DNA of 58,741 nucleotides. Source: Bacteroidia bacterium. GTDB lineage: Bacteria > Bacteroidota > Bacteroidia > SpSt-205. The translations under genes and the position numbers were made by a program. The notes under the pieces were generated by a model, which worked only from the letters and a program-made list of their open reading frames with translations, ran no database searches and had not been told where the DNA came from. Below, in pieces: positions 6,745 through 56,986 of this stretch. The DNA is taken from contig JANWXY010000027.1 in assembly GCA_025057135.1 (NCBI GenBank), positions 1-58,741 on the forward strand, given 5' to 3'. The number at the start of each line of letters is the position of its first letter. The first letter of the stretch is position 1.

Positions 6745-6752
6745 TATTTTTG
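6745..6752 (+). promoter_or_regulatory. -7 box TATTTTTG upstream of the DUF2752 gene
   Basis: TATTTTTG matches TAnnTTTG and lies 4 bases before an ATG at 6757. That ATG opens a 24-codon frame, not the DUF2752 frame. See the entry at 6757-6831. Confidence 0.5.
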
Positions 6753-6782
6753 TCATATGCAGCAAAGAAATCTATCTTCCTC

Positions 6783-9204
<2,422 letters not shown>

Positions 9205-9206
9205 GA

Positions 9207-9815
9207 CTATTCAGACAGTACCGACGAAAGGGCTCTCGCCAGTCCGCTCTCCTCAAATGCCCGGGTAGGGGAGAAAGAATCCCCATACCACGGAAGCTCG
9301 CCCAACGGCTTGAATGTCCGTCGGAAATACGCTTCACTGGGATCGCCCGTAGTGCCATTTAGAACGACGCCGAGAAGGGGTATTCCTTTTGCGTGCAGCG
9401 CTTGGAGGGAAAGCCATGTATGATTCATAGCTCCAAGATAGGGGCGCACTACGAGCAGAACAGGATACCCCCAGTGGGCAAAAAGGTCTATCAAAAAATG
9501 CTCTTCCGTCACAGGCACGAATAATCCCCCTGCACCTTCTATCACTATCGGCTCCGATGGAGGCGGAGCGCATAGAGCTGCCCAATCTATTGATATACCC
9601 TCGGCTTGAGCAGCGACTAATGGAGCTGCCGGCAGCAGGAGCCGATACCGTTCCGGATAGGTGGAAATCCCCCATGCTTTTACAGTCTCTGTATCTGTGG
9701 GGCTACCGGTCTGTACTGGTTTCCAGTAAGCCCAACCAAGTCCTGCAGCCACAGCCGCAGCTACCCGAGTCTTGCCCACATCGGTATGTATCCCCGTTAC
9801 GATGATGCCTTTCAT
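9207..9815 (-). CDS. bioD: Dethiobiotin synthetase
   Basis: ATP-dependent carboxylation of 7,8-diaminopelargonic acid to dethiobiotin, the penultimate biotin step. The 202-residue protein starts with the P-loop GIHTDVGKT and continues with YWKPVQTGS and the EGAGGLFVPV loop, all standard for BioD. No other biotin gene is nearby. It is transcribed away from gltA, with only 32 bases between the two start codons, and is convergent with gyrB. Four bases upstream of its ATG there is TTTG, but the TA of the usual -7 box is missing (CTGCTTTG). Confidence 0.93.
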   Translation of the reverse strand: MKGIIVTGIHTDVGKTRVAAAVAAGLGWAYWKPVQTGSPTDTETVKAWGISTYPERYRLLLPAAPLVAAQAEGISIDWAALCAPPPSEPIVIEGAGGLFVPVTEEHFLIDLFAHWGYPVLLVVRPYLGAMNHTWLSLQALHAKGIPLLGVVLNGTTGDPSEAYFRRTFKPLGELPWYGDSFSPTRAFEESGLARALSSVLSE

Positions 9816-9835
9816 AGCGCAAAGCAGTTTATATG

Positions 9836-9843
9836 TATTTTCG
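9836..9843 (+). promoter_or_regulatory. -7-like box TATTTTCG of gltA
   Basis: TATTTTCG ends 4 bases before the gltA ATG in the 32-base gap between the divergent bioD and gltA start codons. There is no room for a conventional leader on either side. Confidence 0.45.
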
Positions 9844-9847
9844 CCGC

Positions 9848-11134
9848 ATGGAAAAAGCTATCATCCATTTAGGTGAGCAAACATACGAGCTAGATGTAAT
9901 AACAGGGTCAGAAGGGGAGAAAGCTTTGGACATAGGCAAGCTCAGAGACAGAACAGGTTATATCACCTTAGACATCGGATACAAAAATACCGGCTCTACC
10001 ATCAGCCAGATAACCTTCATAGATGGCGAGCAGGGTATCCTACGATACAGAGGATATCCCATAGAGCAGCTGGCAGAGTTTTCCACTTACTTGGAAGTAG
10101 CCTACCTACTGATTTATGGCGAGCTTCCGACCCGGGCTCAATTAGAAGCCTTTGAAGAGCGAATCAAAGAGCGCACGCTTATCCATGAAGATATCAAGAA
10201 GTTCTTTGATGGATTTCCCTCCTCTGCGCATCCCATGGGGATATTGGCTTCCGTCGTGTGTTCGCTTTCTTCTTTTTATCCGGAATCTTTGGACCCTTAT
10301 GCCCCAGATGAGGTCATAGAACGCAATATCATCCGTCTGCTGGCTAAGATTCCCACGCTTATTGCATGGATTTACAAAAAGCGAAAGGGGCACCCTTATA
10401 TCTATCCACGAAATGAACGCAGCTATGTGAATAACTTCCTGTACATGATGTTTGGCATGCCCACTTATGATTATGAGCCTGATCCCCACGTAGTGGATGC
10501 ACTGGACAAGCTCCTTATTCTGCATGCCGACCATGAACAAAACTGCTCTACAAGTACCGTGCGCACAGTGGGTTCCTCTCTGGCAAATATCTATGCCTCG
10601 GTATCGGCGGGCATTTGTGCCTTATGGGGCCCGCTGCACGGCGGCGCTAATCAAGAGGTCATAGAAATGTTGGAGATGATTAAAGCGGACGGCGGGAATA
10701 TCTACAAGTGGATAGATAAAGCCAAAGACAAAAACGACTCTTTTCGTCTGATGGGATTTGGGCACCGAGTATATAAGAACTTTGACCCTCGGGCCAAAAT
10801 CATCAAACAGGCGGCAGATCAAGTCCTAAACGTTTTAGGTATTCATGACCCTGTGCTGGATATTGCAAAGAAGCTGGAAGAGGTAGCGCTCAGCGACCCT
10901 TACTTCATAGAGAGGCGCCTATATCCAAATGTGGATTTCTACTCTGGTATTATTTATCGGGCGATTGGCATACCTGTGGAAATGTTCACGGTGATGTTTG
11001 CATTTGGGCGGTTGGCGGGCTGGTTAGCCCAGTGGTGGGAAATGCGCAGGGCTGGGGAGCCTATCGTGCGTCCTCGCCAGATATACACAGGACCTGTCCT
11101 GCGAGAATACATCCCCATCGCTAAACGCGGCTAA
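9848..11134 (+). CDS. gltA: Citrate synthase
   Basis: Condenses acetyl-CoA and oxaloacetate to citrate, the entry step of the TCA cycle. 428 residues, the hexameric type II length. Visible signatures are ISQITFIDGEQGILRYRGYPIEQLAE, LHADHEQNCSTSTVR (catalytic His region), GPLHGGANQEV, FGHRVYKNFDPRA and NVDFYSGIIYRAIG. The start is taken at ATG 9848, five codons into the open frame, because of the promoter box just upstream and the family N-terminus. Its TAA overlaps the ATG of the permease gene (TAATG), so the two are translationally coupled. Confidence 0.96.
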   Translation: MEKAIIHLGEQTYELDVITGSEGEKALDIGKLRDRTGYITLDIGYKNTGSTISQITFIDGEQGILRYRGYPIEQLAEFSTYLEVAYLLIYGELPTRAQLEAFEERIKERTLIHEDIKKFFDGFPSSAHPMGILASVVCSLSSFYPESLDPYAPDEVIERNIIRLLAKIPTLIAWIYKKRKGHPYIYPRNERSYVNNFLYMMFGMPTYDYEPDPHVVDALDKLLILHADHEQNCSTSTVRTVGSSLANIYASVSAGICALWGPLHGGANQEVIEMLEMIKADGGNIYKWIDKAKDKNDSFRLMGFGHRVYKNFDPRAKIIKQAADQVLNVLGIHDPVLDIAKKLEEVALSDPYFIERRLYPNVDFYSGIIYRAIGIPVEMFTVMFAFGRLAGWLAQWWEMRRAGEPIVRPRQIYTGPVLREYIPIAKRG

Positions 11135-16675: not shown

Positions 16676-16878
16676 TCTCCCAAATGTAGAATTTTCCCCG
16701 CACGAGCAAGGGTAGTACGAAACTTACGCAGATGCTTTTGCCGCTGAGTCAGGTCAGAAAGTCGCGTGATGTCCCGCTCCCGGGCTGCCTCGGCTACCTC
16801 CATTTGGAGCGCCTCTTCGTAAGCATTCAAAGCCTCCAAAAGCGAGAGCCAAGCCACCTGGACTTTTTCCCATGACAT
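16672..16878 (-). CDS. 68-residue helical protein, unknown
   Basis: Small, charged, probably helical protein. Residues about 10-60 have heptad-like spacing and many Glu/Arg/Lys (ALNAYEEALQMEVAEAARERD, LTQRQKHLRKFRTTLARAGK), suggesting a coiled coil. No family recognised. It leads a run with the barrel protein and sdaAB through 4-base overlaps and is divergent from mraZ. A TACCTTTC box lies 4 bases before the ATG, which supports it as a real gene. Confidence 0.6.
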   Translation of the reverse strand: MSWEKVQVAWLSLLEALNAYEEALQMEVAEAARERDITRLSDLTQRQKHLRKFRTTLARAGKILHLGE

Positions 16879-16882
16879 ATAC

Positions 16883-16890
16883 GAAAGGTA
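16883..16890 (-). promoter_or_regulatory. -7-like box TACCTTTC before the 68-residue gene
   Basis: On the minus strand TACCTTTC lies 4 bases before the ATG at 16878, one base from TACCTTTG. Probable promoter for the minus-strand run down to 14509, divergent from the mraZ promoter 40 bases away. Confidence 0.4.
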
Positions 16891-16930
16891 GAGACTTGTG
16901 GGGAAAAGTGGCAGAAAGTGTAGATGCGTG

Positions 16931-16938
16931 TACCTTTG
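16931..16938 (+). promoter_or_regulatory. -7 box TACCTTTG of mraZ and the division cluster
   Basis: Exact TACCTTTG, 5 bases before a TTG codon that would give the canonical MraZ N-terminus MFLFGEY. MraZ represses its own operon in other bacteria by binding direct repeats of a GTG core near the promoter. GTG triplets recur here (16900-16930), but I cannot call an operator. Confidence 0.6.
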
Positions 16939-16943
16939 TGTCG

Positions 16944-17393
16944 TTGTTTCTCTTCGGAGAATATACGGCTCGGCTGGATGCGAAACGGCGCTTTGGTATG
17001 CCGAGCGTGCTGCTTACCCTTCTACCTGAGGGGGCACGCAGTGATTTTGTGCTCCAGCGAGCTCCTGATTCTTGTCTGTGGCTCTATCCTCTACCCGTTT
17101 GGCGCCGTGAGTTAGAAACGCTTTACGAAAAAATCAACCTCTTCACTCCGGAGGGGCGGAACTTCCTTCGCCTATATCAAGCTGGTGCCCAACCAGTTAG
17201 CTTAGATAGCGAGGGGAGGCTCTTATTACCGAAGCCTTTCTGCGATTATGCTGGTTTGCAGGCAGAAATCATACTCCTCGGCATGCGAGACCGCATTGAA
17301 ATCTGGTCCGAATCGCGCTACACCGCGTGGAAGGCTGCCCATGAGTCTCATTTCTCGGAATGGACCCAAAAGTTCCTCGGAGAAGCCCCATGA
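16944..17393 (+). CDS. mraZ: Transcriptional regulator MraZ
   Basis: First gene of the division and cell-wall cluster. MraZ is an AbrB-like ring-forming DNA-binding protein that controls the dcw operon. The N-terminal half has FGEYTARLDAKRRFGMPS and the second copy of the motif is VSLDSEGRLLLPKPFCDYAGL. The open frame reaches back to 16872, but the family N-terminus MFLxGEY starts at the TTG at 16944, 5 bases after a TACCTTTG box. That gives 149 residues, normal for MraZ. Its stop overlaps rsmH as ATGA. Confidence 0.92.
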   Translation: MFLFGEYTARLDAKRRFGMPSVLLTLLPEGARSDFVLQRAPDSCLWLYPLPVWRRELETLYEKINLFTPEGRNFLRLYQAGAQPVSLDSEGRLLLPKPFCDYAGLQAEIILLGMRDRIEIWSESRYTAWKAAHESHFSEWTQKFLGEAP

Positions 17394-18268
17394 AGGTATC
17401 CTACCACTACCCTGTCCTTCTCTGGGACTCTGTGGAAGGGCTCCTCACTAATCCTGAAGGCATATATGTAGATGCGACTTTCGGAGGAGGAGGGCATGCT
17501 GAGGCCATCTTAGCCCACCTGAGCCCGTATGGCTCTTTATATGCCATAGACAAGGACCCCGAAGCCCCATTTCATCGCATACAGGATCAGCGATGTCGTA
17601 CCATCCGAGGGGATTTCCGAGATATAGAGGCTTTACTGGCCCGGCAAGGCGTTACCGCGGTGCATGGCATATTGGCAGATTTAGGCATTTCCTCGCACCA
17701 GGTGGATACGGGTGACCGAGGTTTCAGCTACCGCAAAGAGGCTCTTTTAGACCTTCGGATGGATCCGACCACTGGCGAGCCAGCGTATCGCTGGCTGCAG
17801 CGGCAGACCCCTACTCGGTTAGCCGCTATCCTTCGGACGTATGGAGACTTACCTAAGAGCCGTCGCTTGGCTGAAGTTATCCTACAGCGATGGCATACAG
17901 GCTTCACGACAAAAGCACTCGCTGAATGCGCTTATCTCGTTTATGGCCGAGCTGCAGATAGGTATCTCTCCCCGCTCTTTCAAGCTATACGCATAGCCAT
18001 CAACGATGAACTTGGCGCCTTGGATGCTCTCTTGAATGCAGCGGACAACCTCATAATGCCCGGTGGCAGACTTGTAGTCTTGACCTACCACAGCGGTGAA
18101 GCCCGTCTCCTCAAAGCTCACTTGCGTCGCCCCCACCAGATACATCCTATCACTGGGCAGCAGGCTTTTCTCTGGCGGCTTCTGCGAAAGGTGAGCCCTT
18201 CGCCCGCAGAAGTGCAAAGCAACCCTCGTAGTCGCTCCGCCACATTATGGATAGCGGAAAAGCTATGA
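17390..18268 (+). CDS. rsmH: 16S rRNA m4C1402 methyltransferase RsmH
   Basis: S-adenosylmethionine-dependent N4-methylation of C1402 in 16S rRNA (formerly MraW). 292 residues. Visible are YHYPVLL..SVEGL, the SAM-binding YVDATFGGGGHAEAIL, YAIDKDPEA, GILADLGISSHQVD.....FSYR and LVVLTYHSGEARL. The ATG at 17390 overlaps the mraZ stop, and the distal end overlaps ftsL, both as ATGA. Confidence 0.95.
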   Translation: MKVSYHYPVLLWDSVEGLLTNPEGIYVDATFGGGGHAEAILAHLSPYGSLYAIDKDPEAPFHRIQDQRCRTIRGDFRDIEALLARQGVTAVHGILADLGISSHQVDTGDRGFSYRKEALLDLRMDPTTGEPAYRWLQRQTPTRLAAILRTYGDLPKSRRLAEVILQRWHTGFTTKALAECAYLVYGRAADRYLSPLFQAIRIAINDELGALDALLNAADNLIMPGGRLVVLTYHSGEARLLKAHLRRPHQIHPITGQQAFLWRLLRKVSPSPAEVQSNPRSRSATLWIAEKL

Positions 18269-18561
18269 AGCCCATCCTACGAGTTTTGAATCCCTTCTAC
18301 TGGTTGCCTCGCCAAGTAGGGCTCTGGCTATACATAGCTTTCTGGCTACTTGTGTATGTAGCGACCCAATACAGAGCAGAAATCAAGGTCCGTCAGCTCT
18401 ACCAGCTCCGGCGTCAGCTCTCCGAAAAACGCGCTCAATATCTCCAACTCAACGCCAGCGTGAGCCAGAGACGAAGCTACTCTTCTCTCAAACCGGCTTT
18501 GGATAGTCTCGGATTAGAACTCCCAAAAGAAGCCCCGATTATCGTGCCGATCTATGAGTAA
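18265..18561 (+). CDS. ftsL: FtsL-like cell-division protein
   Basis: 98-residue bitopic membrane protein in the position of ftsL, between rsmH and ftsI. One transmembrane segment (LWLYIAFWLLVYVATQY) is followed by a heptad-rich periplasmic stretch (VRQLYQLRRQLSEKRAQYLQLNASV). Sequence conservation of FtsL is low, so the call rests on size, topology and position. Role: scaffold of the divisome with FtsB/FtsQ. Overlaps rsmH by ATGA and ftsI by 8 bases. Confidence 0.8.
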   Translation: MKPILRVLNPFYWLPRQVGLWLYIAFWLLVYVATQYRAEIKVRQLYQLRRQLSEKRAQYLQLNASVSQRRSYSSLKPALDSLGLELPKEAPIIVPIYE

Positions 18562-20605
18562 GACCTTGAAGCGGTTCTATATCTTCCTGATAGGAGCTGC
18601 ACTTTTGTGGATAGGGTTTCTGATTCGGCTGGGCTACCTTCAATGGAAGTATCGCAACATCTCGCCTTATGACCCTTATACACAACGCCCTTATCTGAAA
18701 CGAGTAGTTGGAGAACGCGGCAGCATATTTGGAAGAGATAATACCGTACTGGCTACAAGCATGCCCTTTTTCCGGGTAGCAGCGGACCCAGGGGCTTGGA
18801 GTGAAACAGAAGTGAAAGACTCCTTGAAACTCCTTGCAGAGGGATTGAGCCGCCTTTTCCCCGATGTGTATCCCAAACCCGAAAATGCCTATCGCTTTCT
18901 ACATGAACGATGGAAATCTGGGGATAGACATGTGTATCTCTTGCCCTATAAGTTATTACTTACCTATGCGCAGCAGAAAGCTGTGGCAGAACTTCCTCTT
19001 TTACGTCACAAACCGGGTCGGCGCGCCTTAGTCGTAGAAAAAATCACGCACAAGCGCTCTTACCCCTATGGCAGGTTAGCTCGGGCGACTCTGGGCTATT
19101 TAGTCAATGACTCGGTGGCATGGCGAGGATTAGAAAGCGCTTTCCACGAGGTGTTGAGCGGAGAGGAGCGGTGGATTCTCGTGCATCGCCTACCGAATGG
19201 GATTGAAATCCCTTTGGAGGACCTCACCGAGTTTGAGCCGCAGGCCGGAGCAGATGTTTTCACAACTATAGACCCTCATCTCCAAGACATCGTTACCCAA
19301 GCCTTAGAAAATGCCATCAAACGCCATCAAGCCAAAGACGGTGTGGCGATTCTGATGGAAGTGACCACTGGGGAAATTTTAGCCATAGCTAATGCAGGAG
19401 AGGAGTTCAATCATGCGGTGAGTACGCTCTGGGAGCCAGGTTCTACATTCAAGGTAGCTACTGCCGCCGCTCTGTTAGAAGCCCAGGCGATTCAGCCGGA
19501 TCAGCGTTTCCTCGTGCCCGCCAGCTTGAAGGTGGCTGACAGGACGCTCACTGATGGGCATGCGGGGGGCTCCATGACGTTTACCGAAGCTCTGGCGCGC
19601 TCAAGCAATGTTGCTTTCGCCAGCCTTTGTTACAAAACTTTTGGTCAAAACCCCGTTAGGTTTTACAGCTACTTGGAGCGCTTCCACCTTTTAGACAAGT
19701 CGGGGGTATCCCTTTACTCAGAGCCTAAACCGGCTTATATTCCCCCCAGGAGCAAATACTTCAATCCGACTACCCTCCCTTGGCTGGCTATCGGATATAA
19801 CATTCGGCTGACCCCCCTCCAAATTTTAGCTTTCTACAACGCCATCGCTAACGAAGGACGCTGGCTGCCCCCTAAACTCGTACGGGAAATCCGATACCCT
19901 GACGGCCAGATTCGGGTACCAGAGCTTCCTCTCCCTCAACGCATTATGAGCGTTCAGACAGCTACGACGCTGCGCCGGCTACTCCGAAAAGTAGTAGAGG
20001 AGGGTACAGCCCAGAGCATAGCCAATCCCCTCTACACTATTGCGGGCAAAACCGGCACAGCCAAGAAGGTGGAGCGCGGTACTTATGTCAATCGGTACCG
20101 AGCCTCATTTGTGGGTTTTTTTCCCGCAGAGCGCCCACGCTACTCTTGCATCGTCGTAATAGACGACCCTCAAGAAGGAGGGATTTATGGGGCAGAAGTT
20201 GCCGCCCCTGTTTTCAGAGAAATAGCTGATGCGATAGTTTTTCGGGATTTACAGGTAGCTCCTCGGATGTTGGACCCTTTACCTGACCGCCTCCAACCTA
20301 CCCTACCTGTCATGGTTCAGAAAAGGGTTGTCCCCTTGTACAATGTCCTCAGCATATCTACGCCCGATAGACCAGAAACACGATTCGTCCGCACACAGCC
20401 TAACACACATTATGTCCAGTTTTTACCACATAAAGCCCAACTTCCTGAGGCCGTCATAGGAATGAGTCTGCGCTCAGCCCTCGCTGAGTTAGAGAGTGCA
20501 GGTTATGCGGTTTATTGGCGAGGCAAAGGCCCGTTTGTTGTGCGCATAGAGCGCCGTTCTAATCGAGAAGTCCTATTAGAACTTGGAGATGAAGCGCCTT
20601 TCTGA
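18554..20605 (+). CDS. ftsI: Division-specific peptidoglycan transpeptidase FtsI (PBP3) with a PASTA domain
   Basis: 683 residues, cross-linking septal peptidoglycan. One N-terminal membrane segment (residues about 8-27), then the class B PBP dimerisation domain beginning VVGERGSIFGRDNTVLATS. The transpeptidase domain has S297-T-F-K300 (nucleophile), S350-S-N352 and K499-T-G501. The last about 65 residues (AVIGMSLRSALAELESAGYAVYWRGKG...) form a PASTA domain, common in Bacteroidota and Firmicutes FtsI/SpoVD-type enzymes. Overlaps ftsL and murE. Confidence 0.95.
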   Translation: MSKTLKRFYIFLIGAALLWIGFLIRLGYLQWKYRNISPYDPYTQRPYLKRVVGERGSIFGRDNTVLATSMPFFRVAADPGAWSETEVKDSLKLLAEGLSRLFPDVYPKPENAYRFLHERWKSGDRHVYLLPYKLLLTYAQQKAVAELPLLRHKPGRRALVVEKITHKRSYPYGRLARATLGYLVNDSVAWRGLESAFHEVLSGEERWILVHRLPNGIEIPLEDLTEFEPQAGADVFTTIDPHLQDIVTQALENAIKRHQAKDGVAILMEVTTGEILAIANAGEEFNHAVSTLWEPGSTFKVATAAALLEAQAIQPDQRFLVPASLKVADRTLTDGHAGGSMTFTEALARSSNVAFASLCYKTFGQNPVRFYSYLERFHLLDKSGVSLYSEPKPAYIPPRSKYFNPTTLPWLAIGYNIRLTPLQILAFYNAIANEGRWLPPKLVREIRYPDGQIRVPELPLPQRIMSVQTATTLRRLLRKVVEEGTAQSIANPLYTIAGKTGTAKKVERGTYVNRYRASFVGFFPAERPRYSCIVVIDDPQEGGIYGAEVAAPVFREIADAIVFRDLQVAPRMLDPLPDRLQPTLPVMVQKRVVPLYNVLSISTPDRPETRFVRTQPNTHYVQFLPHKAQLPEAVIGMSLRSALAELESAGYAVYWRGKGPFVVRIERRSNREVLLELGDEAPF

Positions 20606-22133
20606 ACTGTTACGCGCCCTGCCTAAGGTTCAGGTATGGCAGACGGGCACCGAAGATGTCTCTATCACCCAAATAACCGCCGACAGCAGAGCGGTACGAC
20701 CGGGCGCGCTTTTCGTAGCTTGGAGGGGCAAACAAACCGATGGGCATCAATACATTCCACAAGCTCTGGCAAAAGGGGCCGTCGCCCTACTCTTAGAAAA
20801 ATCCTCAGAAGCCCCCGCTGACATCCCTGTCCTTCTCGTAGAATCAGCAAGGGAAGCTTACGCCTATCTTTCAGCAGCATGGTTTGACTTCCCTGCGGAA
20901 AAGCTCAATATCGTCGGCATCACAGGCACGAACGGCAAAAGCTCCACGACTTACTATTTGTACCAGCTCCTGAGGGGCTTAGGCAAAAAGGTAGGACTCA
21001 TAGGCACAGTTTTCTGCTTAGCAGAGACGGAGACCCTGCCCGCTACGCTCACCACCCCCGACAGCTATGAACTGCACCGGCTTTTCCGGCACTTCGTAGA
21101 AAAGGGGATTACGCATGCAGTGATGGAAGTCAGTTCCATCGCCTTAGACCAATATCGTACAGCTGGGCTCAACTTCGCCGGAGCTATATTTACCAATCTC
21201 AGTCACGATCACTTAGACTATCACGGCACTTTCACCGCCTATCGGGATGCTAAAAAGAAACTCTTTGATGGGCTCTCTCCCCAAGCTTTTGCCCTTACGA
21301 ATGCTGACGACAAACATGGCACTTTCATGCTGCAAAATACCGCCGCTGAGAGATACGCCTACACACTGGAAGGGCGTGCAGATTTCAGCTTGCGTCTGCG
21401 CGAAGCCGGCCTATGGGGCATAGAATATGATTTGGCTCTAAGGTATGGTGAAGTCCAGACTAAAAAGCAGGGCATTCCCCTGATTATAGAAGAGCTTGGG
21501 CCGCTTAGTGCTTCTCTTTTAGGACGATTTCAGGCATACAACCTCATAGCCGCACTTGGGGCCGCTTTCCTCTTAGAGAGAGGCACGGAAGCAGCGAGCT
21601 TAAGAGACCTCTGGCGAGAACTGGGTCGGCTTTCCACCCTTCTCCATACCCTACCGGGGCGATTAGAACCTATATCCCTGCCTGAGGGGCGACTTGGACT
21701 GGTGGATTATGCCCATACACCTGATGCGGTAGAAAAGGTTCTGAAAGCCCTCAGGCCTCTGATTCCAGCTGAGGGGAAATTATTTGCCGTACTTGGAGCT
21801 GGGGGCGATCGCGATCGCGCCAAACGCGGGCCAATGGCTCAAATCGCTGCCCTTCATGCAGATACAGTCATTCTGACAAGCGACAATCCCCGTTCTGAGG
21901 ACCCTTTAGCCATCATAAGAGAAATGCTGGAAGGCGTACCATCCAGCCTACGCAGTAGAGTAGTCACTATCCCAGATCGCGCCGAAGCTATCCGTGTAGC
22001 TGTCCAACTCTCTCCACCTAAAAGCCTCGTGGCTGTGCTGGGAAAAGGACACGAGACTTATCAGGAGATTCAAGGAGTCCGTTATCCATTCAGCGACAGG
22101 GAAATCCTTCAATCGTTTTCGTATGCTCAATGA
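20589..22133 (+). CDS. murE: UDP-MurNAc-tripeptide synthetase MurE, meso-diaminopimelate type
   Basis: Adds the third stem residue to UDP-MurNAc-L-Ala-D-Glu in the cytoplasm. 514 residues. The ATP loop is GITGTNGKSSTTYYL, then VMEVSSIALDQYR and TNLSHDHLDYHGT. D432-N-P-R435 (in SDNPRSEDP) is the DNPR motif that selects meso-diaminopimelate over lysine, so the wall is expected to be DAP-type. ATG 20589, two codons into the open frame, is chosen. It overlaps the ftsI end by 17 bases. Confidence 0.95.
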   Translation: MKRLSELLRALPKVQVWQTGTEDVSITQITADSRAVRPGALFVAWRGKQTDGHQYIPQALAKGAVALLLEKSSEAPADIPVLLVESAREAYAYLSAAWFDFPAEKLNIVGITGTNGKSSTTYYLYQLLRGLGKKVGLIGTVFCLAETETLPATLTTPDSYELHRLFRHFVEKGITHAVMEVSSIALDQYRTAGLNFAGAIFTNLSHDHLDYHGTFTAYRDAKKKLFDGLSPQAFALTNADDKHGTFMLQNTAAERYAYTLEGRADFSLRLREAGLWGIEYDLALRYGEVQTKKQGIPLIIEELGPLSASLLGRFQAYNLIAALGAAFLLERGTEAASLRDLWRELGRLSTLLHTLPGRLEPISLPEGRLGLVDYAHTPDAVEKVLKALRPLIPAEGKLFAVLGAGGDRDRAKRGPMAQIAALHADTVILTSDNPRSEDPLAIIREMLEGVPSSLRSRVVTIPDRAEAIRVAVQLSPPKSLVAVLGKGHETYQEIQGVRYPFSDREILQSFSYAQ

Positions 22134-23532
22134 GCTGATGCGGTGGTTAGACGAGGCTCATGGTTTGCCGGGTATGCGCTTAGCCCAGTATATCAGTTTT
22201 CGCACCTTGATGGCTGCATTCACAGCAGGGGCAGTAGGTCTGCTTATAGGTCCCTTATTGATACGATGGCTGAAAAAAAATGCTTTCGGCGAGACCATAC
22301 GCTCAGAAGGACCGGCTACTCATATAGGAAAAAAAGGCACTCCAACAATGGGGGGGCTATTGATACTTATCAGCTTGGCTATGGGAGCTCTCCTATGGGG
22401 TGAGTGGAATAGCGCTTATTTATGGGCTCTGCTGGGGCTTGCGCTCTGGTTGGGTACAATAGGCTTTTTGGACGACTGGCTCAAACGCGCCCGTAGTAAG
22501 AAAGGGCTTCCGCCTCGTCTCAAGCTGCTTGGACAAGTCGGCGGGGCTCTGTGGCTGACGATGCTTATGTTCTTCGAGCCCAGTTTTCACAGCACACGAG
22601 AGAGAGTCCGAGCTGATGGGCACATTCGCCTATCGCCTCTCCTCGCAGAAGTGGGCTTCAAACGGGGAGACAAACTCATAGCAGTAGCAGGAGAACCTTT
22701 TTCATGGGAGAATTGGCGGTTCAGGCCGACCCGAGCGGATGGAAGCGCGCCGACCTCTTACACGGTACAAAGAGAAGGACAAACCCTACACCTCTATATC
22801 CCCGAAGGTCGAGCCTTTACCATCGCCGCTGAGCTCTTCGGGCAAGCTAAACCCGAAAGCCTCTTTCTGACCAACCTACCTTTTGTCAAAAACCAAGAAA
22901 TCGCCTACGGTACCTTTGGCGGTTGGGAAGCCCCTCTATGGCTTCGAGCCGTTATATATGGCCTCATCGTGCTCTTTATCCTGACTGCTACCAGTAATGC
23001 CTTCAATCTAACCGACGGACTGGATGGACTGGCTGTGGGAGTAGGCGCCATAGCATTCGTAAGTCTGGCAAGCTTTGCCTATTTCTCCAGCAATCGCATT
23101 TGGGCAGACTACTTCATGATACTATACCTTCCACATGCGGCGGAGGTAACGGTATTTGCTGGGGCGGTGGTGGGGGCATGTATTGCTTTCCTCTGGTATA
23201 ACGGATACCCTGCCCAGGTCTTCATGGGCGATACGGGCAGCCTGATGCTTGGGGGATTGATTGGAGCTATCGCCCTAATGGTGAAAAAAGAGCTTCTCCT
23301 GCCGCTAATAGCGGGCATTCCTCTGGCAGAGACGCTCTCTGTCATGCTTCAGGTAGCCTACTTCCGCTACACGAAACGCAAATACGGAGAAGGTCGCCGC
23401 ATCTTTCGGATGTCACCGCTGCATCATCATTTTGAGCTTAGCGGCTGGCATGAAGCGAAAGTAGTCATCCGATTTTGGATAGTAGCCGCGATTTTGAATG
23501 CCTTAGCCTTCATAACCCTCAAAATCAGATGA
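22123..23532 (+). CDS. mraY: Phospho-MurNAc-pentapeptide transferase MraY with a PDZ-like periplasmic insertion
   Basis: Transfers phospho-MurNAc-pentapeptide to undecaprenyl phosphate, forming lipid I. 469 residues, against about 360 in E. coli. Catalytic motifs are present: KKGTPTMGGL, GFLDDWLKRARSKKGLPPRLK, NAFNLTDGLDGLA, GDTGSLMLGG and the cytoplasmic SPLHHHFEL. The extra length lies at residues about 155-260, between the membrane segments before and after the catalytic Asp loop. In this periplasmic insertion, GFKRGDKLIAVAGEPF...TSYTVQREGQTLHLYIPEG reads like a PDZ core. Bacteroidota MraY often has a shorter insert here. Overlaps murE and murD. Confidence 0.95.
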   Translation: MLNELMRWLDEAHGLPGMRLAQYISFRTLMAAFTAGAVGLLIGPLLIRWLKKNAFGETIRSEGPATHIGKKGTPTMGGLLILISLAMGALLWGEWNSAYLWALLGLALWLGTIGFLDDWLKRARSKKGLPPRLKLLGQVGGALWLTMLMFFEPSFHSTRERVRADGHIRLSPLLAEVGFKRGDKLIAVAGEPFSWENWRFRPTRADGSAPTSYTVQREGQTLHLYIPEGRAFTIAAELFGQAKPESLFLTNLPFVKNQEIAYGTFGGWEAPLWLRAVIYGLIVLFILTATSNAFNLTDGLDGLAVGVGAIAFVSLASFAYFSSNRIWADYFMILYLPHAAEVTVFAGAVVGACIAFLWYNGYPAQVFMGDTGSLMLGGLIGAIALMVKKELLLPLIAGIPLAETLSVMLQVAYFRYTKRKYGEGRRIFRMSPLHHHFELSGWHEAKVVIRFWIVAAILNALAFITLKIR

Positions 23533-24896
23533 GCAGAATTGGCATTTGGGGGTTGGGAGAGAGCGGCGTCGGTGCAGCCCTCCTGGCGAAAAAACACGGA
23601 TATGAAACTATTTTACTCGCAGATAAACCGCCTGCCCCCTCCTACGCAGAGAAGCTCACCGCAGCAGGGCTATCATGGCACATTTCCTCGGAGCCCCTCT
23701 CTCTCCTCAGAGAAGTGGATATTGTGATTCGTAGCCCTGGCATTCGCCCAGATAACCCCCACCTTCAAGCCCTGAAGGCTACAACTTCTGTCATTTCCGA
23801 TTTGGAATGGGGCTGGCGGCACTTTCCTTCAACCGCACAGCTATGGCTAATCACCGGCTCAGCAGGAAAGAGTTCTACCACAGCCCTTTTAGCGCATACT
23901 TTGCGTACAAGCGGGCGACGCGCTATCGCCTGTGGAAATATCGGGTATAGCTTCTGCGCGGCGCTTGCCGAGGATTTACCCTATGACTACTATGTGGTAG
24001 AAGCCAGTTCTTTTCAGCTTTGGGATACTTTTTCGCTGATTCCCAACCTCATGGTGGTCACGGGCCTCGTACCTAATCATATTGACTGGCACGGCAGTTT
24101 GGAGGCTTATGTAGAAGCCAAGCTACACATTTTGCGCAGGCTATCCCCTGAAACGCACCTGATATTAGACGCAGACAGCTCGCTTCTGAAAGAGAAGCTC
24201 GAGACCTTTTCTACGAAAGCCAGAATCTGGCGATACGCTCAGAAAGCCGAGCCGGGCATACATGCATGGATGGATGGAAACCAACTCATATGTGATATGA
24301 AAAAGTCCGATGATACCGAAAGATGGGAAGTATCCTACGAGGGTACGCCTATTCAAGAGCTTCCCCAGCGGAAAAATGCCTTGGCAGCTGCCATTTCAGC
24401 CAGGCTGGCGGGGCTACGACGAGCGGATTTGCGCCGCTCCTTTGAGACAATAGAGAAAATGCCGCATCGCTTAGAGCAGGTAGCCCTAATCAATGGCGTC
24501 CTCTATGTGAATGACTCCAAAGCTACCACCACAGATGCGGTCTGGTACGCCCTGCAGAGTTTTGAGCGTCCAGTTATCTGGATAGCCGGAGGGGTAGATA
24601 AGGGGAATGACTGGGGTGAGATTTTAGATGTGGTGCGGGCTCGTGTCAAAGCTCTTATTTTGATTGGCATAGACCCTGAGCCCATTTACAGGGCATTCCA
24701 CGACACTGTTCCTGTGATTGAGCGAGCTGGGTCCATGCAAGAAGCCGTGAATAAAGCTCAAAGTCTCGCCCAGCCAGATGATGTGGTGATTTTATCTCCC
24801 GGATGTGCGAGCTTTGATTGGTATCGCAGCTATGAAGAACGGGGTAACGCTTTCCGTGAAGCTGTCGCAGCTCTCCAGCGTACCGAAGATGCCTAA
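23529..24896 (+). CDS. murD: UDP-MurNAc-L-alanine:D-glutamate ligase MurD
   Basis: Adds D-glutamate to UDP-MurNAc-L-alanine. 455 residues. N-terminal Rossmann domain with GIWGLGESGVGAALLAKK, ATP loop ITGSAGKSSTTALLAH, ASSFQLWDT, LVPNHIDWHGSLEAYVEAK and NDSKATTTDAVWYAL, then the C-terminal SPGCASFDWYRSYEERGNAFREAV. The start ATG overlaps the mraY stop (ATGA). It overlaps the CHAD-like gene by 8 bases. In most Bacteroidota ftsW follows here; it does not in this window. Confidence 0.95.
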   Translation: MSRIGIWGLGESGVGAALLAKKHGYETILLADKPPAPSYAEKLTAAGLSWHISSEPLSLLREVDIVIRSPGIRPDNPHLQALKATTSVISDLEWGWRHFPSTAQLWLITGSAGKSSTTALLAHTLRTSGRRAIACGNIGYSFCAALAEDLPYDYYVVEASSFQLWDTFSLIPNLMVVTGLVPNHIDWHGSLEAYVEAKLHILRRLSPETHLILDADSSLLKEKLETFSTKARIWRYAQKAEPGIHAWMDGNQLICDMKKSDDTERWEVSYEGTPIQELPQRKNALAAAISARLAGLRRADLRRSFETIEKMPHRLEQVALINGVLYVNDSKATTTDAVWYALQSFERPVIWIAGGVDKGNDWGEILDVVRARVKALILIGIDPEPIYRAFHDTVPVIERAGSMQEAVNKAQSLAQPDDVVILSPGCASFDWYRSYEERGNAFREAVAALQRTEDA

Positions 24897-25587
24897 GCCA
24901 TTTCGGATAGGTCTGCGCCGACTGCGCTCTTTATCCCCTAAAAGCATCTACCGCTTCCGAAGGAAAGTAAAGCGGCTACGAGTCTATTTAGCCCTGTATA
25001 ACTTTCCTGCGGACCCGCCCAGCAATCCGGCATTAGATAAGCTTTTTCGCCGAGCGGGCAAGCTGCGTCAGGCTTACCTACACATGGAATGGCTCCAAAC
25101 ACTCGCCCCTGAATGGAAAAAAGCTGCGAAGGCGGAGATTAAGTATCGCAAGCGCAGGCTCAGAAAAGTCCTCAAACCCTCGATAAAAGAGGTTCAAAAA
25201 GCTATCATGGAGTGGGAAAAGAGATTTCCCGAGCCATGGACCACCGCCGAGGGAATGCAGCTGTGGCAAGACCAAGGACGACACTGGACAGACTTTCACA
25301 AGGAGAAGCTGAGGGCTTTTCCTCCCCCTCCCTATACGTCAGAGCAGCTTCACGACTTACGAACCCTCCTCCGAAAGTGGGAGCTGGCAGGATACTGGGC
25401 TGACCTCCCAGAGTCCCCCCCAAAAGGATTGGCCACACTCTTGGGAGAAGCGCGAGACCTCTACCTCCTTCAAAAGTGGCTACGCAAGGTCGGGGCTGAA
25501 GACTCCTTATTGGAAACTGTGCAAAACCTACAAGAGCAAAAAACAACAGAAGCCCTTGTACAGTGGGAAACTTGGCGGTCATCATAG
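24889..25587 (+). CDS. CHAD-like basic helical protein in the ftsW position
   Basis: 232 residues, all helical and strongly basic (FRIGLRRLRSLSPKSIYRFRRKVKRLRVYLALYNF; KYRKRRLRKVLK). Two similar halves, each with an (I/L)xx(L/F)Rxxx(K/R)(R/K)xR helix, the second being QLHDLRTLLRKWELAGYW. This resembles CHAD domains, alpha-helical proteins that bind polyphosphate through basic faces. It is a tentative match and the histidine set is incomplete. The gene starts inside the end of murD and overlaps the TPR gene, so it is co-expressed with wall synthesis. The longer open frame (from 24805) would run back into murD and is not used. Confidence 0.55.
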   Translation: MPKPFRIGLRRLRSLSPKSIYRFRRKVKRLRVYLALYNFPADPPSNPALDKLFRRAGKLRQAYLHMEWLQTLAPEWKKAAKAEIKYRKRRLRKVLKPSIKEVQKAIMEWEKRFPEPWTTAEGMQLWQDQGRHWTDFHKEKLRAFPPPPYTSEQLHDLRTLLRKWELAGYWADLPESPPKGLATLLGEARDLYLLQKWLRKVGAEDSLLETVQNLQEQKTTEALVQWETWRSS

Positions 25588-28541
25588 GATATGCCTGGCT
25601 ACAGGCTCTTCCGCTTCTTTGGGGTCCTGAACGCTTCCGTTATGAAGGGGAGAGAGCTCACTTTCAAGGGGCGCAAAGTTGGGCGCGACAACAGGATATT
25701 TTATACATAGACAGGCTGCCTCTCCCCCTACCCGTGGCACCGCCTTCACCTCTGGTGCCCCTGTGGGAAAAATACGCCCTATTTGACCTTCTCCGAGAGA
25801 ATGCCCCTCATGAGTTAGAGAACTTCGCAGCAGAGGAAGCTCCCTCTTATCGAAGTGCTCTCGCCCGATTCTATGCCGCCAAATACGCCTTTCTCCGCAA
25901 GCAGTATGACAGGACGCTTGAATACTTGTCTGGTTTGAACCCCACGGAGTTTTCCCCCCTACTGCGTCAGGATATGCAGTTTATGGAGGGATACGCAGCA
26001 TATGCGATAGGAGATAAAGGCAAGGCTATCGCTCGGTTGCGTCCTCTGACTGAAAAGTTAGGTCCTTTTCATGACGCAGCGAACTATTATCTCGGTCTCA
26101 TCTACTATGAACGGGGGGACTGGCGCAGTGCCGCAGGGCATCTGGAAGCGGTACAAACGCGAGCCCCCTACGCACAGGAAGCACCGCTATGGCTGGCATA
26201 CTCTCTGGGCAAAATCCCTGACCTTCCACGCTTGAAAGAATGGGGGGAGCGATGGCGCCGCCAAAATCCACCGCCTGCGCACGCCGACACACTCTGGGCC
26301 TTTATAGCGATTACCCTCGCCCAGGCTCAGCAGTGCAAAGCCGCTGAGGAGTATGCCGCTCTCGTGGAGTCTGACCCTTTGGTACGGCTACATTTAGGGA
26401 TTTGTGCCTATAATCAGAATAGGGATACTCTGGCTCTACGCCTCTGGGAGCCACTCCTGAATAGAAGAGACTCACTAAGTACATGGGCCCGCTATGGATA
26501 CGCTTCGGCTCTGGCCCGCTTGAGACGAAAGGAAGAAGCTCTGAGTATTCTATCTGGACTTTCCCCCTCCCCTACGGCACCTATCCCACAATCGCTCTGG
26601 CTCTCTGCGCAGTTGGCTTGGGACTTGCGTCTGCCGGAGTCGGGCCGAAGTGCGCTTTTAGCTTATCTGCAGTATCCTCATCTGCCTAAACGTCAAGAAG
26701 CTCTCCGCTTCATAGCCGAGTTTTATGCCGCCGAAGGTAAATATAAAGAAGCGCTGCACACCTTAGACACGCTCTCTGGGAATGAGTTAGACGAACCCAG
26801 GCAGCGGTTTTGGCTTATGGCGGGATTAGATGCTTTTGCAGAAAAACGCTACGGAGACGCAGAAAGTCTATTTACCCGAGCAGTGCATGCACGCGGCCCA
26901 CACGCGGCCGTGGCTCTCTTTTGGCAGGCAGAAGCCCTCTATCGGCAAGGCGAACTGCGCTCTGCCATAGAAGCTTATGGTCGATTTCTTCGTCACCCCA
27001 ATCACAAGAGCACGCCCTATACCGAGGAGGCGCGTTTAGCTATCGCATGGGCGTTTTTACAGCTTGGACAGGGGGAGGAGGCTCTCCGCTATAGCGAAGC
27101 CCTTCGCCGAGAAGCAAAAAATCCCCTACATTCGTATGCCACCTTCATATCGGCCGGCGCCTACTATCTGAGGAAGCGATATACCGAAGCCCTCTCACTC
27201 TATCAAAGCCTCATAGGGTCTTCTCTGCCTCAGGCCCAGGTGCGATACTATCTTGCGCAGACTTACATACGATTAGAACGGTATAGCGAAGCCGAAGCCG
27301 TACTGGCAGAGCTAAATCCCACTCTGGCAGGGGCAGACCTGGGACTGTACTTAAGAGCGGAAATATGCGCCTTATGGCTCAATCGCCCCTCCTGCACCAA
27401 AGCAGCGGCTGAGCAGCTTCTGCATCATTTCCCGAACTCACCCAAAGCCCCCTTAGCCCTAGCCCGCCTCGGTTTAGCCCAAGCTGAACTCGGAGAAAGA
27501 GAGGCTGCAATCGCTTCTCTGCAGCGCACGTTATCTGACTATCCAGCTTCTCCAGAGGCGGCAAAGATGGCTTTGGACGGACTACGGAGCCTCCTACCTA
27601 CCGACGAGTATGATAAAATCTACCAAAGCTTCATGAGGCAGCTTCCCGCAGGTAGCGAGACTCGGCTGAGCTTTGAGCGGGAACGCTTACGGCAGCTTGC
27701 TGAAAATGAACGATGGAGCACCTTAGAAGCCGAAGCTGCTAAAGCAGCCGCACAGTACCCAGCTCTATCCGGAGAAGCTCTGGCTTGGCGTGCCCTCGCC
27801 GTTGAAAACCTCGGCGATACTTCCAGAGCACTTCAACTTTACCAGGAGCTTACCCTTTACCCAGAGCAGCGAGCGCGCGCTTGGGAACGGCTCGCTCGGC
27901 TACATGTGAGTAGAGGAGCACTCCAGCAAGCGCTCTCTGCTCAGGACTCTTTGATGCGCTATTTGCCTACGACAGGCTACCTTCGGGTACAAGGCCTGCT
28001 TATGTGGGCAGACCTGGCATCCGCTCTCGGAAAGTCAGACAGCGCCCGAATGGTACTATCTGAGCTCCTCAGCGATACCCTACTAAACGCCTTCTCACGT
28101 CAGCGCCTCCTCCTCAGCATAGCCAGCCTATGGGAAAAGTCTGAGAAGCCCGACTCGGCCATAAGTGCCCTTCATCGTGCCGTGGAAATAGACAAAAACC
28201 TCTTAGCTGCCGAAGCTTTATACCATCAAGCCCGGATATTTTATGCCCTCAAAAGACACGACCAAGCTCGGCAAGCCATCTACCGCTTGCGTGACGAAAT
28301 GCCCCAGTACGTAGAGCCCCGAGCCCAAGCTTATCTGATACTTGCTCGGATATTTATAGACGAAAACAAGAGGAAATCCGCCAACCAGCTCCTAGAGAGC
28401 CTCATAGAGAATGCACCTAACGAGTCTATTCGTAAGGAAGCTCGCATCCTAAAAGAGAGCATTCCCCCTGCTCCACCAGATTCGCCTCCCCCTAATCAAC
28501 CCAAACCTAAGCCCAAGAAGAAGTCCAAGAAGCCCGATTGA
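25563..28541 (+). CDS. Large exported TPR-repeat protein
   Basis: 992 residues. A short hydrophobic N-terminus (AVIIGYAWLQALPLLWG) suggests export. The remainder is built from tetratricopeptide-like helix pairs with conserved A, G and Y positions (e.g. AANYYLGLIYYERGDWRSAAGHL, VALFWQAEALYRQGELRSAIEAYGRFL, APLALARLGLAQAELGEREAAIASLQRTL). It ends in a low-complexity Pro/Lys tail (residues about 970-992). TPR proteins of this size usually scaffold envelope complexes. The start is uncertain: GTG 25563 overlapping the previous gene, or TTG 25572. Linked by overlap to the CHAD-like gene and, 10 bases on, to DUF2851. Confidence 0.75.
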   Translation: MGNLAVIIGYAWLQALPLLWGPERFRYEGERAHFQGAQSWARQQDILYIDRLPLPLPVAPPSPLVPLWEKYALFDLLRENAPHELENFAAEEAPSYRSALARFYAAKYAFLRKQYDRTLEYLSGLNPTEFSPLLRQDMQFMEGYAAYAIGDKGKAIARLRPLTEKLGPFHDAANYYLGLIYYERGDWRSAAGHLEAVQTRAPYAQEAPLWLAYSLGKIPDLPRLKEWGERWRRQNPPPAHADTLWAFIAITLAQAQQCKAAEEYAALVESDPLVRLHLGICAYNQNRDTLALRLWEPLLNRRDSLSTWARYGYASALARLRRKEEALSILSGLSPSPTAPIPQSLWLSAQLAWDLRLPESGRSALLAYLQYPHLPKRQEALRFIAEFYAAEGKYKEALHTLDTLSGNELDEPRQRFWLMAGLDAFAEKRYGDAESLFTRAVHARGPHAAVALFWQAEALYRQGELRSAIEAYGRFLRHPNHKSTPYTEEARLAIAWAFLQLGQGEEALRYSEALRREAKNPLHSYATFISAGAYYLRKRYTEALSLYQSLIGSSLPQAQVRYYLAQTYIRLERYSEAEAVLAELNPTLAGADLGLYLRAEICALWLNRPSCTKAAAEQLLHHFPNSPKAPLALARLGLAQAELGEREAAIASLQRTLSDYPASPEAAKMALDGLRSLLPTDEYDKIYQSFMRQLPAGSETRLSFERERLRQLAENERWSTLEAEAAKAAAQYPALSGEALAWRALAVENLGDTSRALQLYQELTLYPEQRARAWERLARLHVSRGALQQALSAQDSLMRYLPTTGYLRVQGLLMWADLASALGKSDSARMVLSELLSDTLLNAFSRQRLLLSIASLWEKSEKPDSAISALHRAVEIDKNLLAAEALYHQARIFYALKRHDQARQAIYRLRDEMPQYVEPRAQAYLILARIFIDENKRKSANQLLESLIENAPNESIRKEARILKESIPPAPPDSPPPNQPKPKPKKKSKKPD

Positions 28542-28551
28542 AACTTGACAG

Positions 28552-29826
28552 ATGGAGAGCAGCCCCAAACGTACTCGCAAACAGAAATCTTATCCGTCCC
28601 GAGTATCCGAACTGCTTCTCCACTGGATATGGAGAAACCGACTATTTGAGTCAGCGGCGCTGCGTACTCTAAATGGTCAGGCCGTAGAAATCATAGAAAC
28701 TGGCACCTTTCACCCCCAGGGACCTGATTTTCAAGGAGTTAAAGCCCGCATAGATGGAGTCCTGTGGATAGGTAGCGCTGAAGTAGATATAGCCCCGGAC
28801 TCTTGGTATGCACACAAACACCATGAAAATCCAGCCCATCGCAGCACCATCCTCCACATCGTCTGGGACACCTCTCCCCATGCCCTCACCATAGATATGG
28901 ATGGCCGGGAAATTCCTATCCTTCCGCTGGCTCCGGCGGTTCAAGCTGACATACTGCAGAGATTGCACACAGAACGGCCAAGCTTTCCCTGTGCAAGCTT
29001 GGCGCGCCTACTACCCGAGTCGGACTGGATCAGCTTATATGAGACGTGGGGAGAAAAGCGGCTGATAAGTCGCCATCGTACTTACCGCAGTGAAAGAGAG
29101 CTTTTTGAGGCATTCTGGCGAGCGCTCCTTTACAGCTTCGGAGCTCCTGACGGACAAGTTTTTCAACTTATCGCCGAAAGTCTCCCCTGGACAGTTTTTA
29201 CTCGGTCAGCGGAGACCCTCGTGCAAAAGGAAGCTACGCTTTTCGGCATCGCCGGTCTCATGGAAAACCTGCCAGCCCCTCAGCATCCATACGAGCGAGA
29301 ACTTTCAGACACCTGGCGCTACTTGAAACGAAAGCACAACTGGTGCAGTCTCAAGATTCGCTTTCGTCCAGCCCGTCCAGCGGCTTCGCCGTGGATACGA
29401 TTAGCTCAGGCAGCTGCCCTCATTCATACCCATCCTAAGCCTGTCGAATTGCTTCTCCATCCTCCCGCAGCTCTACCAGTGCCGAGCCCATACTGGCTCA
29501 AACACTGGGCATGGCAGAAACCCTTAGCCATTCCCTTGCGAGCCGCTTCTCCTTTTCTATACCAGAATATACTCATCAATGTCCTTTATCCGTTCGGGAT
29601 TTACTACCTGCGGTACCTCGGACGATTAGAGGAGGCCTTAGATATGGTAGATAAGTTTCGCCGCTGCGCTCCAGAGAATCATACTTATGCTCGCCTCTAT
29701 GCCAAATGGGCTTATCCTGCTCGCAGTGCATGGCAAACTCAGGGACAAATCCAGCTCTGGCGAGACGCCTGTCAGCTTCAGGCCTGCCTTTCCTGCCCAA
29801 TCGGAAAAGCCATTCTAACCAGGTAG
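28552..29826 (+). CDS. DUF2851 family protein
   Basis: 424 residues of the Bacteroidota family DUF2851. The N-terminal domain has LLHWIWRNRLFESAALRTLNGQAVEIIETGTFHPQGPDFQGVKARIDGVLWIGSAEVDIAPDSWYAHKHH.NPAH...ILHIVW, with acidic and His positions arranged like a nuclease-type fold, though function is unproven. The C-terminus ends in ACQLQACLSCPIGKAIL with the conserved cysteines. Starts 10 bases after the TPR gene and closes the operon begun at mraZ. Confidence 0.85.
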   Translation: MESSPKRTRKQKSYPSRVSELLLHWIWRNRLFESAALRTLNGQAVEIIETGTFHPQGPDFQGVKARIDGVLWIGSAEVDIAPDSWYAHKHHENPAHRSTILHIVWDTSPHALTIDMDGREIPILPLAPAVQADILQRLHTERPSFPCASLARLLPESDWISLYETWGEKRLISRHRTYRSERELFEAFWRALLYSFGAPDGQVFQLIAESLPWTVFTRSAETLVQKEATLFGIAGLMENLPAPQHPYERELSDTWRYLKRKHNWCSLKIRFRPARPAASPWIRLAQAAALIHTHPKPVELLLHPPAALPVPSPYWLKHWAWQKPLAIPLRAASPFLYQNILINVLYPFGIYYLRYLGRLEEALDMVDKFRRCAPENHTYARLYAKWAYPARSAWQTQGQIQLWRDACQLQACLSCPIGKAILTR

Positions 29827-37497: not shown

Positions 37498-38478
37498 TCA
37501 GGTGGGCGGCAAAAGTCGTACTTCGGGTTCTAACTGTACCCCCCATCTCTCATATACGCTTTTTTGAATATGCTGAACTAAGGCGTAGAACTCCTCTGGC
37601 GTGGCGCCATCAGCATTTACGAGTACAAGGGGCTGACGAGGATATACCTGAGCACCACCTATGCGGTAACCTTTGAGGCCCGCTTTATCTATCAGCCATG
37701 CAGCCGCTACTTTGAAGCGGCCGTCAGACTGTGCATAAAAGGGTACCTCTGGTGCTCGGCTCTGTAAAGCCTTTAGCTCCTCAAGCGATAGGATGGGATT
37801 TTTGAAAAAACTACCAGCGCTGCCGTAGGCAGGTAACTTTTCCGCCCGAATCATCCGTACCGTCTCGTATAAATGCCAAGGGTCATGCTGGCGGGTAGGA
37901 TTAACTCTCTGCATCACATCAGGATAGGACAGAACCGGACTGAAACGGCGGTTGAGACGGAGGGTTACTCGGGTGATGATAAACTTATCCCGCCATTCGG
38001 GCTGCTGAAATATGCTATATCGGTAGTTCAGCTCACAAGCTTCTGCGGGAAGCTCCTGCCATGCTTCTAAGGCTTTATTCCATCCTCTGACGCTGACCAA
38101 AAAAGGAGCAAGTTCCGCCCCGTAAGCACCGATATTTTGTACGACAGCAGCGCCGACAGTACCTGGTATGGCGGCAAGGTTTTCTAAACCATGCCACCCC
38201 TGGGCTATACACAAGCGTACCCAACGATCCCAGTTCTCCCCAGCAGCTACTTCCACCTCCACGGAGTTTTCCGAGGCTCGTAAGACACGATAGCCTCTCA
38301 GATTACGAGTAGAGAGTATGGAGGGCAAATCTCCAAGGGGAAGAATGTTACTCCCCTCGCCGATTACATAAGATGATTGGGCAGCCGCATCGGGCACTTC
38401 ATCTTCGGAATGCGGCAAAAGGAGGCGCTGTGCCGAAACAGAAATCCCTAAGGTATGGTACTCACGAAATGGTATCAC
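37498..38478 (-). CDS. murB: UDP-N-acetylenolpyruvoylglucosamine reductase MurB
   Basis: NADPH/FAD-dependent reduction giving UDP-MurNAc. 326 residues, E. coli-type (type I). Visible are the FAD-domain VIGEGSNILP, LAAIPGTVGAAVVQNIGAYG, the YRYSIF loop, the catalytic serine region GSAGSFFKNP and AAWLIDKAGLKG, ending near the conserved Glu of LEPEVRL. It overlaps the anti-sigma gene by 17 bases, so it is transcribed with the sigma and anti-sigma genes rather than with the mur cluster 9 kb or more away. Confidence 0.94.
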   Translation of the reverse strand: MIPFREYHTLGISVSAQRLLLPHSEDEVPDAAAQSSYVIGEGSNILPLGDLPSILSTRNLRGYRVLRASENSVEVEVAAGENWDRWVRLCIAQGWHGLENLAAIPGTVGAAVVQNIGAYGAELAPFLVSVRGWNKALEAWQELPAEACELNYRYSIFQQPEWRDKFIITRVTLRLNRRFSPVLSYPDVMQRVNPTRQHDPWHLYETVRMIRAEKLPAYGSAGSFFKNPILSLEELKALQSRAPEVPFYAQSDGRFKVAAAWLIDKAGLKGYRIGGAQVYPRQPLVLVNADGATPEEFYALVQHIQKSVYERWGVQLEPEVRLLPPT

Positions 38479-52825: not shown

Positions 52826-52830
52826 GCGAT

Positions 52831-56912: not shown

Positions 56913-56986
56913 ATGCAGATTAGACAAGTACAGCCGAGAGGGTAGCTGTCGTATAGCTTACAAGTTAGGCGATTTTCTAAAAGAAT

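Follow-up and report, generated by a model that had tools for sequence, protein, structure and literature searches.

A dcw cluster cut after murD carries genes for a predicted CHAD-fold protein and a large TPR protein in a genus of Bacteroidia

What stands behind murD when the dcw cluster has been cut at that point, and why would it stay there? The dcw cluster is counted among the most conserved bacterial gene orders (PMC8871954). We analyzed a stretch of 58,741 nt from a Bacteroidia bacterium of the order SpSt-205 (contig JANWXY010000027.1, hereafter the window). According to the Pfam and NCBIfam models that matched the window genes, the order from mraZ to murD is the standard dcw order, with every gene on the + strand: mraZ (16872..17393; PF02381 (MraZ), 71.2 bits), rsmH, also called mraW (17360..18268; PF01795 (Methyltransf_5), 235.5 bits, and TIGR00006 above cut-off), an ftsL-like gene (18247..18561; PF19579 (FtsL_2), 41.7 bits), ftsI for the PBP transpeptidase (18554..20605; PF00905, 180.9 bits), murE (20583..22133; NF001126, 495 bits, above cut-off), mraY with an extra PDZ-like domain (22123..23532; TIGR00445, 327 bits, above cut-off, and Pfam Glycos_transf_4), and murD (23532..24896; TIGR01087, 345.6 bits against a cut-off of 212). 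In Pfam, the products of murE and murD both register as Mur ligases.

The sequence-only reading had claimed that the cluster stops at murD and that overlapping genes lead on to a basic CHAD-like protein and a TPR protein, and this description holds. The next gene on the + strand encodes a predicted CHAD-fold protein of 232 aa with a pI of 10.2 (24889..25587; PF05235, 28.3 bits, gathering 25.6). It is followed by a gene for a TPR protein of 992 aa with an N-terminal hydrophobic segment (25563..28541, +; TPR families in Pfam). The murD/CHAD junction is an 8-nt overlap (CHAD ATG at 24889, murD end at 24896), and the CHAD/TPR junction is a 25-nt overlap (TPR start GTG at 25563, CHAD end at 25587). 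The list of open reading frames starts the CHAD gene at GTG 24805. Judged by the conserved N-terminus of its relatives, which sets in at about 24889, the ATG at this position is the likely start and gives the 232 aa. A scan for promoter-like and terminator-like sites (5 against 9.8 expected and 15 against 14.2 expected, respectively) was uninformative either way.

For the genes that usually follow murD, the same reading had proposed a search elsewhere in the genome. An intact ftsW-murG-murC-ftsQ-ftsA-ftsZ run was found on contig C59 of this genome (G000:C59:4214-10981), in the order nitrilase-like gene, ftsW (4214), murG, murC, a 225-aa ftsQ-like gene, ftsA and ftsZ (9680-10981); ftsZ and ftsW were assigned by family models, and murG, murC, the ftsQ-like gene and ftsA were named from sequence and order. 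The murF gene lies at G000:C81:13559-14824. The front order mraZ-rsmH-ftsL-ftsI-murE-mraY-murD and the rear order ftsW-murG-murC-ftsQ-ftsA-ftsZ are the same as in the dcw cluster of Bacteroidia, but here the cluster is cut between murD and ftsW, and the CHAD and TPR genes are joined at the cut.

In a sample of 60 genomes, 47 belong to the class but not to the SpSt-205 order, and 42 of these have murD beside ftsW, as had been expected of Bacteroidota; in the family of the window, none of the 11 genomes with murD does. Within this family, the murD and ftsW halves share a contig at a distance of about 208 kb in G005 and about 159 kb in G007; the other genomes have murD and ftsW on separate contigs. 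Five class genomes are exceptions: murD is near a contig end in G015 and G051, G019 lacks a clear murD (best E 5.6e-26), and genes other than ftsW follow murD in G054 and G059. The cluster is split too in G011, from the sister genus, where the rear part reads nitrilase-ftsW-murG-murC-ftsQ-ftsA. In G012, from another family of the same order, a 290-aa ORF overlaps the murD stop and ftsW is on another contig; since murD lacks ftsW beside it there as well, the cut may predate the family or have arisen more than once. An inherited cut whose free end has gained two genes amounts to a natural experiment on the purpose of this gene order.

All nine relatives fetched through MurD have the murD-CHAD-TPR order, L002-L009 as full loci and L012 with a locus cut inside murD. 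The assembly of the window genome is in 94 contigs, which would suit a misassembly or a chimera near 24.9 kb, but the identical junction recurs in nine MAG records, one of them a single contig of 2.27 Mb. We therefore rule out this explanation, whose probability is negligible, and with it the possibility that the order is unique to one assembly. The CHAD gene adjoins murD on the same strand in 10/10 genus genomes with murD; a CHAD profile was positive in 10 of the 11 genus genomes, and the eleventh, G001, also has no murD over the cut-off. Two loci show variations. L009 has a second, partial murD that separates murD from CHAD, and the TPR gene of L008 (L008:11948-15009) is in two overlapping frames, reflecting a frameshift that is either genuine or introduced by the assembly.

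The surroundings of the block differ among relatives. Downstream in the window, after a 10-nt gap without overlap, follows a DUF2851 gene (28552..29826, +; PF11013, 199.8 bits against gathering 25), which had been taken as a continuation of the cluster; it occurs in 0/9 of the relatives' loci, so we rejected it as part of the unit and regard it as a neighbour outside the conserved block. Upstream, a gene pair is common to only three of the eight full loci (L002-L004). Both flanks of the cluster are thus reshuffled, and the junctions from murD to TPR overlap or abut in the relatives. Because the overlaps survived while both flanks changed, shared expression of CHAD and TPR with the murein genes is well supported by the gene arrangement. 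This part of the earlier claim, that the overlaps imply co-expression, stands.

The sister genus bears on the order of arrival. Locus L010 reads murE-mraY-murD-TPR, with about 137 nt at the place of CHAD; from matching contig places, we took L010 and G011, the one genome of this genus, to be the same genome. Since the sister genus has murD-TPR without CHAD, CHAD would have come later than TPR, and the operon seemingly can do without CHAD (G011 is only 66% complete). The distances of CHAD correlate with those of MurD (r 0.82), and the distances of MurD with those of MraY (r 0.83), the pairs not being independent; L003 and L004 were entered with starts later than their conserved N-terminus suggests, 11349 and 11319 looking better. 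These distances fit vertical descent.

We then consider what the CHAD gene may encode. The predicted structure, built from a 10-row alignment, has eight helices, a mean pLDDT of 94.6 and a pTM of 0.90. Against solved CHAD entries, VIA gave Z scores of 17.8 (6qv5), 16.3, 15.4, 15.2 and 15.1 over 220-223 residues, and the next row scored 7.8. Foldseek also ranked three CHAD entries first, with modest E values of 0.02-0.08. When solved structures were searched by sequence with the CHAD alignment profile, no CHAD was found; fold comparison settled the identity. On this model, we are confident in assigning the predicted protein to the CHAD fold, as its sequence had suggested. Across 395 Bacteroidota genomes, the CHAD profile matched the window and a 33-aa frame in G033, and in G151 it weakly matched a canonical CHAD. 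Within the class, canonical CHADs have a sporadic distribution (29/247 at E 1e-3, five of them from the genus of the window).

The protein resembles known CHAD proteins (PF05235; CtCHAD 6qva, RcCHAD 6qv5, PptA 6rn5) in its CHAD fold, basic character, G-x-x-R motifs and, in a register read from sequence, second-half His-x2-Arg-x3-Arg, and differs from them in having Tyr for the first-half His, in being short and in having its gene in a murein operon. The pI is 10.2-11.5 in nine CHAD sequences including that of the window. In the 10-row alignment, whose register comes from sequence only, H155/R158/R162 and R189 of the second half are invariant, as are Y21/R24/K28 and R60 of the first half (10/10 rows) and the G-x-x-R motifs in the two halves. 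Going by this sequence register, other residues occupy the place of the second-half Arg-Tyr pair (Arg418/Tyr419 of CtCHAD). Lorenzo-Orts and others (PMC6537752) report that His253, Arg256, Arg260 and Arg296 of CtCHAD matter for polyphosphate binding, that the tested CHADs bind polyphosphate and not nucleic acids, and that stand-alone CHAD genes often sit with polyphosphate enzymes. In the sequence register used here, the 0, +3, +7 spacing of His253, Arg256 and Arg260 recurs as H155/R158/R162 in the second half and as Y21/R24/K28 in the first. A ppk1 gene scored above cut-off in 9/9 genus genomes searched (G000 to G008). We predict that the CHAD protein likely binds polyphosphate; with Tyr21 in place of the first-half His and the Arg-Tyr pair replaced, this binding could be weaker or altered.

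The CHAD fold might instead have been repurposed, its basic surface having taken on a different ligand close to the wall enzymes, such as nucleic acid, an anionic lipid or nucleotide-sugar intermediates. Divergence speaks for such a change: genus members share 44-58% identity with the window protein, PF05235 misses three of eight members in one sample, and the first-half His is Tyr. We nevertheless consider it unlikely, given that the second-half His/Arg/Arg triplet and both G-x-x-R motifs are invariant and that the ligand reported for the tested CHADs is polyphosphate. A literature search on CHAD together with peptidoglycan or cell division found nothing on point.

TPR homologues occur in 56/60 genomes, mostly as frames of about 1000-1100 aa. 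Among 20 regions hand-picked from the homologue matches (L028-L047), 17 have a gene of about 560 aa directly beside the TPR homologue on the same strand; in G013 and G012 the contig stops close to the gene, and in G059 the neighbours are different. No Pfam family matched the ~560-aa gene, and the profile of its protein weakly matched the end regions of TonB-type barrels, from which we infer an outer-membrane barrel. The window genome has one diverged barrel-like homologue at C80 (E 3.5e-18), unlinked to TPR. From its N-terminal hydrophobic segment, the TPR protein of the window is presumably exported. It shares this segment and a long TPR solenoid with PorW/SprE, large exported TPR proteins of Bacteroidota, and differs in that its homologues are about 1000-1100 aa long and paired with a barrel-like gene. 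Assignment to PorW/SprE (NF052312, 44.6 bits against a cut-off of 250) was rejected, as was assignment to YbgF/CpoB (TIGR02795, 83.6 against 90.1 bits, matching short TPR stretches only). A literature search on large TPR proteins found nothing on point.

These observations touch the second half of the earlier claim, that the two proteins may work in wall synthesis or division. Elsewhere in the class the TPR gene lies apart from murD beside the barrel-like gene, and the CHAD fold points to polyphosphate, so expression may be shared without a shared function; a role of CHAD or TPR in wall synthesis is possible. Passive hitch-hiking would take this furthest: CHAD and TPR would need the steady promoter of the murein operon, and neither would act on murein. 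The location of TPR in the class and the late arrival of CHAD, absent from the sister genus, are what this would lead one to expect. We lean against it, since it also predicts some loss, and the junctions are kept in 10/10 genus genomes while the flanks change.

Taken together, we favor a reading to which we assign a probability of roughly 0.55, in which the front half of the dcw cluster broke off after murD and TPR and then CHAD joined it. The break would have occurred in an ancestor of this hot-spring Bacteroidia family, or earlier, the rear half being kept elsewhere. The class-wide TPR gene may have joined the broken end first, and a diverged CHAD gene may later have been placed between murD and TPR, a step so far observed in this genus alone. 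The start-stop overlaps could let ribosomes move on from murD into CHAD and then TPR, so that both proteins would be made in step with the PBP and the enzymes for wall precursors. The CHAD protein would most likely be cytosolic and bind polyphosphate made by PPK1; the exported TPR protein would probably act in the envelope as a scaffold for the barrel partner, to which its gene is no longer linked. The split cluster and the two genes at its cut end also hint at a link between stored phosphate and wall building. A stronger version, in which CHAD, made in step with MurD, is a part of the wall-precursor machinery that responds to polyphosphate, by tethering or sensing it, and adjusts wall synthesis to the phosphate and energy state, with TPR carrying the coupling to the outer membrane, seems to us improbable. 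The genus offers a place to test the polyphosphate-murein link.

A separate observation concerns stand-alone MurD C-terminal domain proteins, which many Bacteroidia carry, mostly between murD and ftsW. A second, partial MurD match, confined to the C-terminal domain and lying in frames of about 160-240 aa, occurs in 16/60 genomes, directly 3' of murD in all carriers except G054. The loci are L009:11394-11996 and, for G023, G036, G057, G043, G015, G054, G021, G039, G032, G053, G049, G024, G020, G055 and G041, respectively, L048-L053 and L055-L063. The murD-ftsW gap is two-peaked, with 28 gaps of 23-139 nt and 14 of 425-872 nt; the half-MurD lies in 13 of the 14 long gaps, and in the fourteenth, that of G045, there is a 123-aa ORF, possibly a diverged copy. 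At least 23 of 109 genomes carried the half-MurD in another class sample, which overlaps with the first. Pfam Mur_ligase_C was met by two of three copies tested. Since L054 duplicates L009, it was left out of the blast and tree work; from G054 came only a half copy. In the tree, which does not resolve the backbone of the other halves, the L009 copy falls inside the MurD of the genus (support 92 with L007). This placement argues against a remnant of the class-wide half-MurD, which we rejected; a duplication of its own is the more likely origin of the L009 copy. A literature search on partial MurD duplicates found nothing on point, nor did one on dcw in Bacteroidetes.

MraY of the window carries an insertion of about 105 residues (152-256; 22576..22890, +) between two membrane helices. 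Its model has a pLDDT of 81; the top Foldseek rows are mostly PDZ (best E 2.4e-3), VIA gave a middling Z of about 6.5, and Pfam PDZ_6 reached only E 0.17. By predicted fold, we describe the insertion as PDZ-like. Similar stretches align in MraY of G012 (L068) and G059 (L066) and not in MraY of L011, L014 or L070. A literature search on MraY with PDZ found nothing on point.

Other genes of the window were noted in passing. Besides the front half, the window contains murB (37498-38478) and a gene for a bifunctional penicillin-binding protein (54753-56927). At 52750-54729, WD40 repeats are fused to a caspase-like peptidase domain. A DUF2752 gene and then gyrB (6750-9204) stand about 8-10 kb before mraZ; a homologue of this DUF2752 gene directly follows TPR in one relative (L005:15074-15451), and gyrB follows TPR and the barrel-like gene in three class regions.
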